Source: a bacterium (GTDB lineage Bacteria; UBA10199; JACPAL01; GCA-016699445). Taken from it: a stretch of 64,000 nt of DNA. The position numbers and the translations under genes are program-made. A model generated the notes under the pieces. That model saw nothing but the letters and a program-made list of their open reading frames with translations. It was not told the origin of the DNA and did not search any database. Shown piece after piece: positions 4,355 to 40,130 of the stretch. The stretch is from the NCBI GenBank assembly GCA_035454885.1, contig DATIGE010000014.1, forward strand, positions 1 through 64,000, read 5' to 3'. The stretch's first letter is position 1; each line of letters begins with the position of its first letter.

Positions 4355-5160
4355 GAACGCTCCATGCGTTGAAAGAGGCTGATGAGGGACAGCAGGACAA
4401 ACGAAGCCAGGAGCATCATCACGGCGATCGCCGCGGCCCCCGCGTAGTCGTACTGTTCGAGCTTGGTAATGATGAGCAGGGGCGTGATCTCGGTCTTCAT
4501 CGGCATGTTGCCCGCGATGAAGACGACCGACCCATATTCTCCCACCGCGCGGGCGAAGGCCGAGGTCATGCCCGTCAGGAGGGCCGGAAGGAGGGCCGGG
4601 AGAATCACCTTCGAGAAGGTCTGCCAGCGCGTCGCCCCCAGGCAAACGGCCGCTTCCTCGACATCGGGGTCCAACGCCTGCAGGACCGGCTGAACGGTCC
4701 GCACGACGAAGGGCAGTCCGATAAAGATCAGGGCGATCGTCACGCCCAACGGCGTAAACGCGGCCTTGATGCCGAGCGGATCGAGATATTTTCCCAGGAA
4801 CCCGTTCGGGGAATAGATCGTTGTCAGGGCGATGCCGGCCACGGCCGTGGGAAGGGCAAACGGCAAATCCACCAGCATGTCGATCAGGCCCTTGCCTGGA
4901 AACTTGTATCGCACCAGGACCCAGGACACCAAGAGCCCCAAAAGGCCGTTCACCAAGGCCGCGATCAACGACGCTCCGAAGGTGAGGCGGTAGGAGGCCG
5001 TCACGCGCGGGGACGCGGCAGCCTCCCAAAACGCCTGCCAGCTCAAGCCCGACGCCTTGAGGAAAAGCATCGTCAAGGGAATCAAGACGAGCAGGCTTAG
5101 ATAGAAGATCGTGTAGCCCAGGGTCAGACCGAAACCCGGAATCACGCTTTTAGTGCGCAT
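4351..5160 (-). CDS. cysT: Sulfate ABC transporter permease CysT (CysU)
   Basis: A 269-residue permease with six predicted membrane segments, starting [19 protein letters not shown]. The EAA motif region ([21 protein letters not shown]) and the family motif [18 protein letters not shown] are present. It pairs with CysW to move sulfate or thiosulfate across the inner membrane. The start lies inside the last codons of sbp (11-nt overlap). The longer frame that extends into sbp lacks membrane character before this Met, which supports the start chosen. Confidence 0.93.
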
Positions 5161-6268
5161 AGATTTGGTCAAAGAGACCTCCGTCGTTGAAAAACTTGGG
5201 TTGCGCCTGACTCCATCCGCCGAAGGCTTCGTCGATGGTGACCAAATTGAGTCTTGGAAATTTGGCGGCGTACTTCGCCGCCACCGTGGCTTCGCGCGGT
5301 CGATAGTAATGCCTGGCCGCGATCTCCTGTCCTTCCGGCGAATAGAGATAATCGAGGTAGGCCTTGGCGACGTCCTCGGTCTTATGCTTCGCGATGTTTT
5401 TTTCGACCACCGCCACCGGCGGCTCGGCCAGGATGGAAATCGACGGGACCACGATCTCGAACTTGTCCTTTCCCAATTCATTCACGGCCAGAAACGCCTC
5501 GTTTTCCCAGGCGAGCAGGACGTCTCCGATCCCGCGCTCCACAAAGGTCGTCGTCGAACCGCGGGCGCCGGAATCCAAGACCGGCACGTTCTTATAGAGC
5601 GCAGAGAGGAACTCCTTGGCCTTCGCCTCGTTTTCAGGGGCTCGCGTCGCCCCCTCCACCGGCAAAGCCGTTGGAGCCTCCCCCTCAACGCCCCTTCGGG
5701 GCTGGTTTGACGGATTTGTAGAGTTTCGTTGCAAGGCGGCGTAGGCCCAGGCGGCGAGGAAGTTCCACCTCGCTCCGCCGGAGGTTTTGGGATTCGGCGT
5801 GATCACGGCCATGCCGGGCTTGACCAGATCGTCCCAGTCCTTGATGGCCTTGGGATTTCCTTTGCGGACGAGGAAAACGATCGTGGACGTGTAGGGGGCA
5901 CTGTTGTTCGGAAGCTTCGCCTGCCAGTCCCTGGGAAGGAGACCCGACTTCTCGGCGATGGCGTCGATATCGTAGGCCAGCGCCAGTGTGACGACGTCGG
6001 CCTCAAGCCCGTCGATGACGGCGCGGGCCTGTTTGCCCGAACCGCCGTGCGATTGCTTGACCTCGACCGCCCCTCCGCCCTTCGACTGCCAATACTTGGA
6101 AAAGGCGGCATTGTAGTCCTGATAGAGCTCGCGGGTCGGGTCGTACGACACGTTGTAGAGGGTCACCGGGTCCGCAGCCTGCGCCTGCGGCAGGACCGCA
6201 ATCGCGAGTCCGAAGACCGAACCGAGGATCCAAAGGGCGTTGCGAATGATTGTTTTGATCCGTTTCAT
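5150..6268 (-). CDS. sbp: Sulfate-binding periplasmic protein Sbp, carrying an in-frame repeat insertion
   Basis: A 372-residue protein with a signal peptide ending near [20 protein letters not shown]. Family hallmarks are [12 protein letters not shown], the [14 protein letters not shown] block, and [28 protein letters not shown], which line the sulfate site. It captures sulfate and hands it to CysTW. Between AALQRN and NEAKAKEF there are about 28 extra residues ([16 protein letters not shown] and following) absent from typical Sbp proteins. They come from a 73-nt repeat at 5635-5707. The frame stays open, and the insertion sits between conserved blocks, probably in a surface loop, so the protein may still work. 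Confidence 0.93.
5635..5707 (-). repeat. 73-nt palindromic repeat, copy A, inserted in frame in sbp
   Basis: The element matches 38768-38840 at 68 of 73 positions with no gaps. It contains three potential hairpins, read on the plus strand: GGGGC-TCGCGTC-GCCCC, then CCACCGGC-AAA-GCCGTTGG (one mismatch), then CCCC-TTC-GGGG. The substitution A..T in copy A versus G..C in copy B falls on paired positions of the middle stem, so pairing is kept. Both copies are translated in the same frame as [12 protein letters not shown]-x-ALP-x-EGATRAP. This behaviour resembles the Rickettsia palindromic elements that invade coding genes, though the sequence itself is one I do not recognise. Confidence 0.85.
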
Positions 6269-37140: not shown

Positions 37141-38637
37141 TTAAAGGTCATGCCCCGCGTACGAAAGGTTGAAGCTCTTGTTGATCAAAGGAAAATCGGA
37201 AATCTGCTGGTCCCGCAGCGATAAGGCCACCGCCGTCCAATTGGAAAACGAAGGATCTTTCACCTTGTACCGGGCGATCTTCCCTTCGCCATCCGTCGTG
37301 ATCACATGCACGATCTCTCCCCGCCACCCTTCCACGAGAGTCGCGGAGAGGCTGTCCCGGGCCGGCGGGCCGCAGGGAGAACGCGTCTCTCCCGAAGGCA
37401 TGTGCTCGATGAGAGAGAGGAGGAATTCCATCGATCGTTCCATCTCGATCCGCCGTACGAGGGCCCGCGCATAGACGTCGCCCTCTTCCGCCGTGACGGC
37501 CGGCACATGATGGAATCGATAAATTCCATGGGGGTAATCCTTTCGAACGTCGCGATCCTGCCCGCAGGCGCGGGCGGCGGGGCCTACAAGACCCATCGCC
37601 TGACAGGTCTTTAGGGAAACCGATCCGATGCCGTCCATGCGTTCAAAGACGGATGGCGCTCCAAAGAAGAGCTCGGCCACGTTCGCGAGATCCTGCTGAA
37701 GACGCCGCAGCCGGGCGGAAAAGGACTCGGACATCGCCTGGGGCAAATCAAAGGCCACGCCTCCCGGGCGGACATGGGAACGTCCGAACCGGTTGCCCGT
37801 CAGGTCCGTCAAGAGGTTCAGAAAATCGCCCCGCATCCGGCCGAAGAAAGCTGCGGCCGGGACAAAACCGACGTCGCCGGCCAGGGCGCCCAGATCACCG
37901 ACATGGTTGGCCAGCCGCTCCAATTCCAGGGCGATGGCCCGCAGCGCTTCCGCGCGGGGCGGAACGCGGCTCCCCGCGAGGCCTTCCCAGGCCATCGCCG
38001 ATGCGATGGCATGACCGACCGCCGTATCGCCCGCGATGGACTCCGCAATCAGGGGAACGCGCCAAGGCGCCGCCGTCTCGAGGAGTTTCTCCACGCCGCG
38101 ATGCTGATAACCGAGCTGGATCTCCAGATGAAAGACGTTCTCCCCGTGGCATTGAAATCGGAAATGACCCGGTTCGATGATGCCGGCGTGGACCGGACCC
38201 ACTCCAACCTCATGGATTTCCTCGCCCTGAATTTGGAAGAAGGGCTGACGGCGGGGAATCGGTTCGGAGACGGATGAGGATTCGGGAAATCGAACGGGCT
38301 TGAGCCAGGGATGGCCGACGGGCTCGGAACCGAACTGTTCGTAAATTTCCCTCTCGAAGAGGTGCGCCTGGGGATGTTGGGGAGTCAGGGAAGGAAAGCT
38401 GTTTGCTCCCTTCGCGGCGCCGATCCAGAGCCGGCCCTGCTTGTCATCGCCGAGGATCCCATAAAGCTTAAGACCTTCCGAAACCTTGCGGCCAAAATAA
38501 GCGATCAGCCGGTAACCCTCCTGCAACTTTGCCCCGATGGAGTCGACAAAGAGCGCGGTATCCTGGGTGATTGGAATCTGATTCTCCGCGATGGCCCCAC
38601 CATTTCTCAGAAGGCGGAACGTCCCCTGGTTTTTCAC
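37141..38637 (-). CDS. Ehr complex large subunit (HyfG/NuoCD-like) lacking NiFe ligands
   Basis: A 498-residue fusion of a NuoC-like domain (about 30-125) and a NuoD/hydrogenase-large-subunit domain. It starts at GTG overlapping the previous stop (GTGA). Where group-4 hydrogenases have the first CxxC (RxCGxC), this protein reads ESIAGDTAVGHA. Where they have the C-terminal DPCxxC, it reads NKSFNLSYAG. With all four Cys gone it cannot bind a NiFe centre. This matches energy-converting hydrogenase-related (Ehr) complexes, whose substrate is not settled. Confidence 0.88.
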   Translation of the reverse strand: MKNQGTFRLLRNGGAIAENQIPITQDTALFVDSIGAKLQEGYRLIAYFGRKVSEGLKLYGILGDDKQGRLWIGAAKGANSFPSLTPQHPQAHLFEREIYEQFGSEPVGHPWLKPVRFPESSSVSEPIPRRQPFFQIQGEEIHEVGVGPVHAGIIEPGHFRFQCHGENVFHLEIQLGYQHRGVEKLLETAAPWRVPLIAESIAGDTAVGHAIASAMAWEGLAGSRVPPRAEALRAIALELERLANHVGDLGALAGDVGFVPAAAFFGRMRGDFLNLLTDLTGNRFGRSHVRPGGVAFDLPQAMSESFSARLRRLQQDLANVAELFFGAPSVFERMDGIGSVSLKTCQAMGLVGPAARACGQDRDVRKDYPHGIYRFHHVPAVTAEEGDVYARALVRRIEMERSMEFLLSLIEHMPSGETRSPCGPPARDSLSATLVEGWRGEIVHVITTDGEGKIARYKVKDPSFSNWTAVALSLRDQQISDFPLINKSFNLSYAGHDL

Positions 38638-40130
38638 CGATGACCTCCCACCAGAGCGGCGGCCATCTGAAGAGGCCGGTCAAGCCAAGAGGGGATGTAA
38701 ATCCCGAGGAGGAAAACGGAGAGGAGCAGGACGCAGGGAGTCAGTGTCGTGAGCCATGGCTCGATCACAGGGGCTCGCGTCGCCCCCTCCGTCGGCAAAG
38801 CCGCCGGAGCCTCCCCCTCAACGCCCCGTCGGGGCTGGTTCTCTGCCGGCTCCCCTTGAGTCATCGAGAGGACGATGCGCCCCATCCCGACAAAAATGAG
38901 GGCGAGAAATCCCAGAAACAGCGCGACCACCGTCCAGTGGCCGTCATTCACGGCCGATCGCAGAATCGTAAATTCGCTCACGAAAATCCCGAACGGAGGA
39001 GAGCCGGTGATCGCGATGAATCCGGCCATGAAGAGGGCTCCGGACAGCGGCAATCGGCGGAAGACCCCCTGAACGGACGAGACGGATTTGCTCCGGTAAT
39101 GCCGGTGAATATTGCCGGCCGTCAGGAACAGGACGCCTTTCGCCAAACCATTGCTTAACAGATGGAGAAGGGCCCCGTAGATCGCCAATCCCCCGAGGCC
39201 CAACGCCAACGTCAAGATCCCCATGTGCTCCACGCTTGAATAGGCCAGCATGCGTTTGTAATCTTCTTGGCCCAGCATGAAGACGGCGGCGACCCCCATG
39301 GAGAGAAGTCCGATCATAACGAAAAGAGGCCGCGCAAAATCGGCTTGCTGGGCCGCCTGACAGACCTGGTTGATGCGAAACAACGCCAGGAACGCACAGC
39401 TGGTCAAAGCCCCGGCCAGAAGAAAACCCACGAGTCCCGGCGCTTCTCCATAGGCATCCGGCTTCCAGGTGTGCATGGGCGCGAGGCCCATTTTTGTACC
39501 GTATCCCACGAGGAGAAAGATAAAGGACGCCCGGAGCCAAGGGACCGAAAACGAGGCGCCATGTTGAAGCATCGTCGGGAGAAAGAGCGGGTTTTCAACC
39601 GGGCCGGCGGCCGTCTCGGCCATGGCGAGAAAAAAAGTCCCCAGAAGGGCCAGCGCGATCCCCACCGAACAGATGATGAGATATTTCCAGGTGGCTTCCA
39701 GAGACCGCTGGTTGTGATTGAAATAGAGAAGCGGAGCGGAGGCCAGCGTCGTCGCTTCAAGAGCGACCCAGAGGAGGCCGAAATGATGGCTGAGGGTGAC
39801 GACCGTGACCGCGGAGAGGAAGAAAAGGAGGGAGGCGACGAAGTTCCTGTTATTCCGCTCCAACCGTTGCTTCAAATATCCGACGGCATAAAGAGAGGCC
39901 CCCAGGAACAGCAGACTGATGAGGCCCAAGACGATTTTCCCCATGGCATCGAGCAGGAGCCACCGGCCCAACGTGGGGAAGGAACCGGAAACCCAAAGCC
40001 AGGAGACCGTGACCGCGTGAACAACAGCGATCGGCACAAGGATCCATGGCCTTTTTCCGTTGTCTTTGATGGCGAAGGCAAGGCCCGCACCCAGGAGCGG
40101 AATCGTGATTAAGAGCAGGAGAGCGAGCAT
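38634..40130 (-). CDS. Ehr complex antiporter-like membrane subunit (HyfF/NuoN-like), carrying an in-frame repeat
   Basis: A 498-residue membrane protein with about 13 hydrophobic segments. Motifs typical of Mrp/NuoN-type subunits include YGTKMGLAPMHTWKPDAY (conserved Lys and His), LGQEDYKRMLAYSSVEHMG and LAKGVLFLTAGNI. The loop before the last membrane segments contains [16 protein letters not shown] and following residues, encoded by a 73-nt repeat that also occurs in sbp. The frame is open throughout. It probably conducts H+ or Na+. Confidence 0.88.
   Translation of the reverse strand: MLALLLLITIPLLGAGLAFAIKDNGKRPWILVPIAVVHAVTVSWLWVSGSFPTLGRWLLLDAMGKIVLGLISLLFLGASLYAVGYLKQRLERNNRNFVASLLFFLSAVTVVTLSHHFGLLWVALEATTLASAPLLYFNHNQRSLEATWKYLIICSVGIALALLGTFFLAMAETAAGPVENPLFLPTMLQHGASFSVPWLRASFIFLLVGYGTKMGLAPMHTWKPDAYGEAPGLVGFLLAGALTSCAFLALFRINQVCQAAQQADFARPLFVMIGLLSMGVAAVFMLGQEDYKRMLAYSSVEHMGILTLALGLGGLAIYGALLHLLSNGLAKGVLFLTAGNIHRHYRSKSVSSVQGVFRRLPLSGALFMAGFIAITGSPPFGIFVSEFTILRSAVNDGHWTVVALFLGFLALIFVGMGRIVLSMTQGEPAENQPRRGVEGEAPAALPTEGATRAPVIEPWLTTLTPCVLLLSVFLLGIYIPSWLDRPLQMAAALVGGHR
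38768..38840 (-). repeat. 73-nt palindromic repeat, copy B, inserted in frame in the HyfF-like gene
   Basis: Identical to 5635-5707 at 68 of 73 positions, same orientation relative to the host gene and same reading frame. The middle stem reads CCGTCGGC-AAA-GCCGCCGG. Compared with copy A the third base pair changes from A-T to G-C, preserving pairing, while the neighbouring mismatch is retained. The peptide lies in a loop between membrane helices, where extra residues can be tolerated. Confidence 0.85.

Follow-up and report, generated by a model that had tools for sequence, protein, structure and literature searches.

A dispersed 72-nt palindromic element with three hairpins, two of them covarying, lies in frame within unrelated bacterial protein genes

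The element in the window, in its genome and against homologues

The window, by which we mean the whole 64,000-nt stretch of DNA that was analysed, carries two copies of a short palindromic repeat, each within a protein gene on the minus strand. The genes, the copies and their parts are as follows.

5150..6268, minus strand: host gene for a sulfate-binding protein (Sbp), matched by phmmer to 1SBP; the ORF is open through the insert
5636..5707, minus strand: element copy in sbp, 72 nt (24 codons)
5690..5702, minus strand: hairpin 1 of the sbp copy, GCCCC GAA GGGGC, used in the covariation analysis
5654..5676, minus strand: hairpin 2 of the sbp copy, CTCC..GGAG, used in the covariation analysis
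5637..5653, minus strand: hairpin 3 of the sbp copy, GGGGC GACGCGA GCCCC, with a nearly invariant core
5628..5635, minus strand: 3′ flank motif of the sbp copy, GAAAACGA, which fits NNAAWNGA and is read as host target sequence
38634..40130, minus strand: host gene for a HyfF-like Proton_antipo_M subunit; the ORF is open through the insert
38769..38840, minus strand: element copy in the hyfF-like gene, 72 nt (24 codons)
38823..38835, minus strand: hairpin 1 of the hyfF copy, used in the covariation analysis
38787..38809, minus strand: hairpin 2 of the hyfF copy, with a compensatory A-T to G-C change relative to sbp, used in the covariation analysis
38770..38786, minus strand: hairpin 3 of the hyfF copy, used in the covariation analysis
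38761..38768, minus strand: 3′ flank motif of the hyfF copy, GTGATCGA, used in the junction comparison

Full-length copies in this genome have in common a repeat unit of 72 nt, or 24 codons, whose ends on the minus strand read AACCAG...CCCCT. An earlier note on this DNA had described a 73-nt repeat; the repeat is present in both genes, but that span was one base too long, its low-end base belonging to the flank. The 68 matching bases reported between the sbp and hyfF-like copies were recovered (93% over 73), and both copies are, as had been stated, in sense orientation to their host gene and read in the same frame. The note had also proposed a search for further copies. BLAST of the whole genome with one copy returned seven (E 7e-69 to 2e-4), five beyond the two claimed, and an RNA covariance model (R1) built from these seven found seven, a recovery given by construction, and no more at E 0.001. 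Six of the seven lie in sense orientation and in frame in unrelated genes, namely sbp, the hyfF-like gene, rsmA/ksgA, carB, hslU and a methyltransferase-like gene (Rsm22 profile). Hairpin 1 is missing from the CarB and HslU copies, and the KsgA and HslU copies contain frame shifts within the element, the host frame nevertheless being kept. The seventh copy lies in a tRNA cluster, at an apparent truncated tRNA-Thr. At this junction (L004:1452-1573, G000:C15) the copy abuts an apparent 5′ half of tRNA-Thr, with an intact tRNA-Thr beside it; the Rfam tRNA model scores 38.6 bits in a match that extends into the element, and there is no ARAGORN call. An Rfam 15 scan of nine loci, at E up to 1, gave one tRNA match, overlapping this junction, and no family that matched the element itself. 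Outside the seven counted copies, L011:1506 (G000:C3) may hold a remnant of hairpin 3, with ACGAATGG after it.

When Sbp was compared with PDB sequences by phmmer, it aligned to 1SBP (E 5e-134) in two stretches on either side of the insert, with 30 residues where 1SBP has one. The inserts of CarB, KsgA and HslU were partly unmatched in such comparisons, since at that place the PDB homologue, too, has some residues. Among class relatives, none of the 29 KsgA loci fetched carries an insert, and one of the 17 HyfF loci does, that of G014, while the other 16 are without (L347, among the 17, aligned as a fragment only); these loci are the best 29 and 17 returned by the searches. The encoded peptide is missing from the Sbp homologue and from most HyfF loci compared, in agreement with the earlier note. 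The G014 copy lies about three codons from that of the window's genome (G000), with its 3′ junction at the same codon, and HyfF has no insert in G001, of the window's order, or in G007, G018 and G028, of the family of G014. In other genomes, BipA of G002 exceeds both 4zci and the homologous G005 locus by about 21 residues, the RNase R insert of G023 is partly unmatched, and an ArsS-like radical-SAM gene of G004 (L039) has an insert that its homologue in the window's genome (L022) lacks. In the L-aspartate oxidase gene of G002 (L206), the loop of the homologue is shorter by about 8 residues only, and this insert looks more like a replacement. KsgA of G003 carries an in-frame insert of another kind, the palindromic repeat TGTAGGGGCG...CGCCCCTACA (L323:1882-1995, minus strand), which has 25 matching pieces in G003, both strands of the palindrome being counted, and none in the window's genome.

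Hairpins, distribution and junctions

The element is built of three hairpins in a row. Over all 59 candidate rows of the alignment, 91.6% of 1173 cells were paired versus 83.4% (sd 0.5) after shuffling, and 78 two-sided changes were counted versus 20.1 (sd 3.4); none of 500 shuffles matched either figure, and slid controls brought pairing down to 41-64%. Alignment A2, made of 41 chosen rows, had given 94.3% paired versus 85.5% shuffled and 57 two-sided changes versus 15.8, and the count was repeated on all 59 because the 18 rows outside A2 included most copies in which hairpin 1 has GCGAGC on both arms. In both sets alike, 10 pairs of hairpins 1 and 2 changed on both sides. Covariation is strong in these two hairpins and hairpin 3 is almost invariant; pairing over the 59 rows was 72.9% in hairpin 1, 96.8% in hairpin 2 and 99.3% in hairpin 3. 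Hairpin 1 occurs with 40 arm pairs among 139 of 186 copies, the other 47, mostly with GCGAGC on both arms, having no stem of at least 4 in the stretch searched. Hairpin 2 was found in 59 distinct 23-nt versions whose inner pairs cycle through C-G, G-C, T-A and A-T, and it seems to need hairpin form more than any given sequence. Forty-seven copies fell outside the two length classes; a GGGGACAGATTT palindrome replaces hairpin 2 in 5 of them and another hairpin is inserted in 7. The replacing palindrome, GGGGACAGATTT...AAATCTGTCCCC (L090, L098, L099, L115 and L118), is perhaps a separate repeat.

The structural evidence is this covariation and not folding energy. Compared with dinucleotide shuffles, none of the seven own-genome copies had a notably better fold (z -1.4 to +0.2), and with z near zero, RNA folding energy was set aside and covariation used. 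The three hairpins of the earlier note are real on the level of the family, but the minimum-energy RNA fold of both the sbp and the hyfF copy keeps hairpins 2 and 3 and pairs the hairpin-1 region otherwise. The compensatory change that the note had seen in the middle stem, A-T in one copy and G-C in the other, is borne out for the family, with covariation far above shuffles. Upstream of the element, L116, L151, L192 and L053 contain another palindrome-like sequence, TAGATTCCCACGGGC...GCCCGTGGGAATCTACC in form; a reverse copy of the hairpin-3 core occurs in some of them, and these arrangements may be composite elements.

Of the 46 genomes of the window's class, 22 contain the element, each with between 1 and 102 matches (102 in G025); match numbers from this and other searches of more than 40 genomes, 'single' matches included, are lower bounds, few candidates having been scored per genome (106 in the class search, 15 in a 295-genome sample). 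BLAST over 60 genomes gave a match in 23, the window's own included, and in none of the 14 outside the class. When named genome contigs were scanned for exact occurrences, at least 120 stretches had a match, and the titles among the matches listed include Nitrospirae, Deltaproteobacteria, Syntrophus, Syntrophobacterales, Bdellovibrionales, Troglogloeales, Peribacteria and others, with no Rickettsiales title among them; this list is made of record titles, with binning as deposited, and is neither a frequency nor proof of taxonomy. L054 and L259 are one and the same locus, shared by a contig titled Nitrospira sp. Bin_29_2_1 and by G017 of the window's class, and that title is doubtful. A second model (R2), built from the 41 diverse copies of A2, was positive in 19 of 20 genomes, those from which 20 of the listed loci come, with 1 to 71 matches, and the 295-genome sample, drawn from the phylum of a Nitrospirae-titled genome, had the element in 17. 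Besides G025, G060 has a high copy number, with 71 matches. Phage and plasmid records gave no element match, and no exact core was found in viral contigs. Judged by these matches, the 72-nt family spans bacteria filed under several phyla. A topic-based literature search by title and start of abstract, limited to papers other than subscription articles and preprints, returned nothing on it, and the three-hairpin family seems not to have been described previously.

The sole flank motif, among 170 copies with a recognisable hairpin 1, is NNAAWNGA directly after CCCCT, at the 3′ junction only (A at +3 in 135 of 170 and at +4 in 154 of 170); on the 5′ side of the same copies, conservation fades about five bases ahead of the 5′ stem. 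No target duplication was detected in the 87 class copies outside G025, in which the longest common word averaged 3.32 versus 3.30 in shuffled sequences. The 8 nt of the sbp 3′ flank recur after the copy in the L-aspartate oxidase gene (L206), whose tail encodes ENDE at the position of ENADE in the aligned enzyme 5kxj, and in L039 GTAATTGACCG continues the host motif VIDRC, the empty homologue having GTGATTGACCG. In the genes that can be compared in this way (L039 and the L-aspartate oxidase gene, not BipA or DabA), the flank motif looks like target rather than element. Beside the 5′ end, empty-site pairs differ by bases gained or lost, and none of the empty sites was perfectly clean; insertion is therefore not clean in every case.

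Placement in genes and the DabA loop

Placement was called with a codon model for 245 deduplicated copies, most of which were not called inside genes. Twenty-five lay in sense orientation and in frame, with both flanks coding in one open frame, a number that is a lower bound, with 16 copies at contig edges excluded and 55 called coding on neither side. A further 4 were antisense in frame, 29 sense and 10 antisense copies had coding sequence on both sides out of frame, 97 had it on one side, 5 were convergent and 4 divergent. The window's own hyfF copy was called coding on the left side only, and not in frame. Of the 29 sense out-of-frame copies, 21 have two distinct ORFs on either side, the other 8 being ambiguous; out-of-frame gene breakage is therefore uncommon, as expected if broken genes are purged. 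One-sided copies are sense to the neighbouring gene in 71 of 97 cases (p 5e-6). A special sense bias within genes was rejected, since 25 sense to 4 antisense is not above the 71 to 26 found between genes (Fisher p 0.21).

Hosts, named from Pfam and PDB matches, include BipA, LeuRS, a PBP1A-type protein, PriA, RNase R, L-aspartate oxidase, a universal stress protein (Usp), a SpeA-like (arginine-decarboxylase-like) protein and, twice, DabA, among others; a Mur ligase and an Mfd-like helicase are among the antisense hosts. In some hosts the insert stops about a dozen residues or fewer ahead of the next domain (insert end/domain start 437/438 in BipA, 248/251 in RNase R, 186/197 in PriA and 179/185 in L106), and other inserts lie within Pfam domains (KsgA, Sbp and Usp). 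At the 3′ end, 22 of the 25 in-frame copies encode EGAT(R/Q)AP-like and 3 GGDASP-like peptides. Selection on the peptide was rejected as the cause of this common frame, for which stops account. Among 150 copies outside the in-frame set, taken with their 8-nt tail, 102 have frame 0 open, against 38 and 45 for the two remaining frames; tail-less, the same 150 copies give 106, 56 and 116 open for the three frames, compared with 63-64% in shuffled elements. Stops in the motif (TAA, TAG) shut one sense frame and the TGA of GTTGAGG the other, and because these close the other sense frames in most copies, a common frame arises without peptide function. On the tail-less counts set against the shuffles, nothing suggests that the element has been adapted for coding. 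Class 0 of length modulo 3 is missing from in-frame copies (0 of 20 versus 35 of 150, p 0.015), a weak and lineage-confounded difference.

Eight genomes of the 295-genome sample had a single match, with 15 candidates scored per genome, and in four of them (G139, G316, G234 and G273) it lies in one loop of DabA, just before CIDVRSE. The one match of G079 is likewise in this loop before CIDVRSE, and in G222 the loop holds an apparently decayed copy, its single match being at the end of a semialdehyde dehydrogenase ORF. DabA of G387 is 92% identical to that of G139 and has no element. In a tree of 33 DabA sequences (the 30 best-matching loci returned by the search and three more), built with the insert columns left out, six carry the element, the decayed G222 copy counted, and well supported branches force five changes; the label is no more clustered than chance (5 changes versus a shuffled mean of 5.7). 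On this tree, the element was gained or lost at least five times in one DabA loop. Other positions in DabA hold a sense copy in VBOF and an antisense copy in JACQCD.

Between G139 and G316 the element is 0.92 identical in nucleotides and its flanks 0.65-0.83, and among G139, G316, G234 and G273 the element is 0.84-0.92 alike versus 0.48-0.83 in flank windows. Flank identity has no clear rise beside the element, and recombination was rejected as the means of spreading the DabA insert; repeated arrival would fit this pattern better than exchange of gene segments. Distant orthologues with the peptide at the same place, which the earlier note had named as the case against an invading repeat, do occur, in HyfF of G014 and in DabA of several genomes. 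Closer relatives are without the insert, a distribution that fits recurrent insertion better than an ancestral domain.

The earlier note had also suggested selection on structure. The hairpin arms do change together, but two diverged DabA copies have lost pairing, in part in L426 (G273) and largely in L419 (G222), and their frames are still open. These two sequences give a weak indication that hairpin pairing can be lost with the frame kept; structure seems not to be needed after arrival, and the pattern hints that it is needed for spreading rather than for the host. The contrary reading, that the element is a selected host part whose mRNA hairpins or peptide are useful (in ribosome pausing between domains, mRNA processing or binding), is improbable. 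It could explain why the hairpins covary, why several inserts lie near domain boundaries, why DabA elements are more alike than their flanks and why one-sided copies are mostly sense to their sole neighbouring gene, but the hosts are unrelated and have orthologues without the insert, L426 and L419 have open frames with pairing partly or largely lost, folding energy is ordinary and stops account for frame use.

Mechanism and comparison with known systems

In the sequences compared, copies of the element are dispersed and placed in frame in genes whose homologues lack them, the hairpins covary, and the flank motif is one-sided with no target duplication detected. We consider it likely that this is a palindromic mobile element, non-autonomous, of which the in-frame copies survive selection. 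The 3′ end would come to sit against a one-sided target, NNAAWNGA directly after CCCCT, and leave no target duplication. Copies that arrive in genes would survive if they add whole codons in an open sense frame at a tolerant site, such as a loop or a domain boundary, and the survivors would be translated as a hydrophilic linker. On this model copies would still be moving, the inserts would be translated, and a trans-acting enzyme would recognise the nearly invariant hairpin 3.

The element has a hairpin towards either end, a motif on one side, a strand bias and no target duplication, and these are the traces that single-strand transposition of the Y1/HUH type would leave. That the enzyme acts on single-stranded DNA in the manner of these (IS200/IS605-type) transposases is a serious possibility, though one that we hold to be rather less probable than its opposite. 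Matches to Y1_Tnp (PF01797) occur in 38 of the 46 class genomes, up to 10 per genome, in genomes with and without the element. Forty Y1 stretches from element-bearing genomes, a part of all PF01797 matches in the class, held copies in 2 (L370 and L390) versus about 0.75 expected, which is no clear excess, and in none of the 40 was the Y1 gene flanked on both sides by the element; four other PF01797 loci, two of them repeats and two from element-free genomes, were also searched and brought the number with a copy no higher. The occurrence of Y1_Tnp with and without the element and this count do not tie a Y1 transposase to the element as a dedicated partner.

A bolder proposal, and to us an unlikely one, is that insertion is phase-locked to the genetic code. 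NNAAWNGA, which is best stop-free when read as x-I/N-D/E codons, would set the open phase, so that an element arriving in a gene could be translated as a linker; the same DabA loop would be reached repeatedly, in genomes with no other copy detected, and phyla would be crossed.

Two further readings have very little probability. Mobile bypassing elements of yeast mitochondria are short hairpin-rich inserts that ribosomes bypass, and the element, likewise short, rich in hairpins and found in conserved genes, has their form; against its removal from the product by mRNA splicing or ribosome bypassing, the frame is open across all six own-genome gene copies, including ksgA and hslU with their internal frame change, and out-of-frame interruption is uncommon. 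An ancient, vertically inherited and immobile insert lost by most lineages would suit the sites common to several genomes (L089, L140 and L154; L079 and L133) and the neighbouring HyfF copies of G014 and G000 with their same 3′ junction, but sits badly with 0 to 102 matches within one class, different genes in different genomes and five unclustered changes forced by the DabA tree.

For annotators, the mobile-element reading carries a warning that the peptide EGEAP.ALP.EGATRAP is an insert and not a domain. With about 100 copies per genome at most, in several lineages, the family offers a system for studying palindromes that invade coding sequences. The graded DabA series (well paired, partly decayed, largely lost), the clear flank motif and the covarying hairpins make it testable how such elements choose sites, why they lie in frame and whether they are raw material for protein linkers.

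Among known systems, IS200/IS605-type (Y1 HUH) elements share the hairpin near each end, the one-sided motif and the lack of duplication; they differ in that no transposase gene with matching ends was seen in the stretches examined here. The GTAG and CGTC repeats (REPs), according to Di Nocera 2013, occur inside genes in several species, and like the 72-nt element are found in many phyla, mostly between genes, with some translated within genes; no dedicated transposase is apparent there for the CGTC type (PMC3733652). They are described there as single stem-loops of 20-40 bp, one end of which carries an unpaired tag, GTAG or CGTC (PMC3733652). By inspection, such a tag is absent from the consensus ends AACCAG...CCCCT of our three-hairpin element, and the CGTC in its complement lies within the loop of hairpin 3. 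MITEs, as covered in a 2024 review, are similarly small, non-autonomous and dispersed, and can fuse with genes in frame (PMC10969869). The 72-nt element differs by having, on inspection, no terminal inverted repeats, its ends being AACCAGCC and CCCCT, and by having no target duplication in the 87 copies compared.

Palindromes that invade coding sequences came to attention in Rickettsia, where their mechanism is not known to be settled. The likeness to them drawn by the earlier note holds for behaviour, a palindrome lying in frame in unrelated genes, with seven copies here, six in genes, missing from homologues and covarying. In two papers, Rickettsia palindromic elements (RPEs) are likewise short palindromes in frame in many unrelated genes, with copies outside genes too (PMC10969869, PMC3767692). 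As described there, RPEs are 100-150 bp long and belong to Rickettsia and Wolbachia, whereas the 72-nt element has three hairpins and other hosts, and it is by this description that we set the two apart. For R. japonica, orthologues are reported to have inserts at shared sites, with solvent exposure, noted for extended RPE-4 inserts, and possible hotspots (PMC3767692). The review states that RPEs enter genes in frame and regards a comparable process in other prokaryotes as conceivable (PMC10969869).
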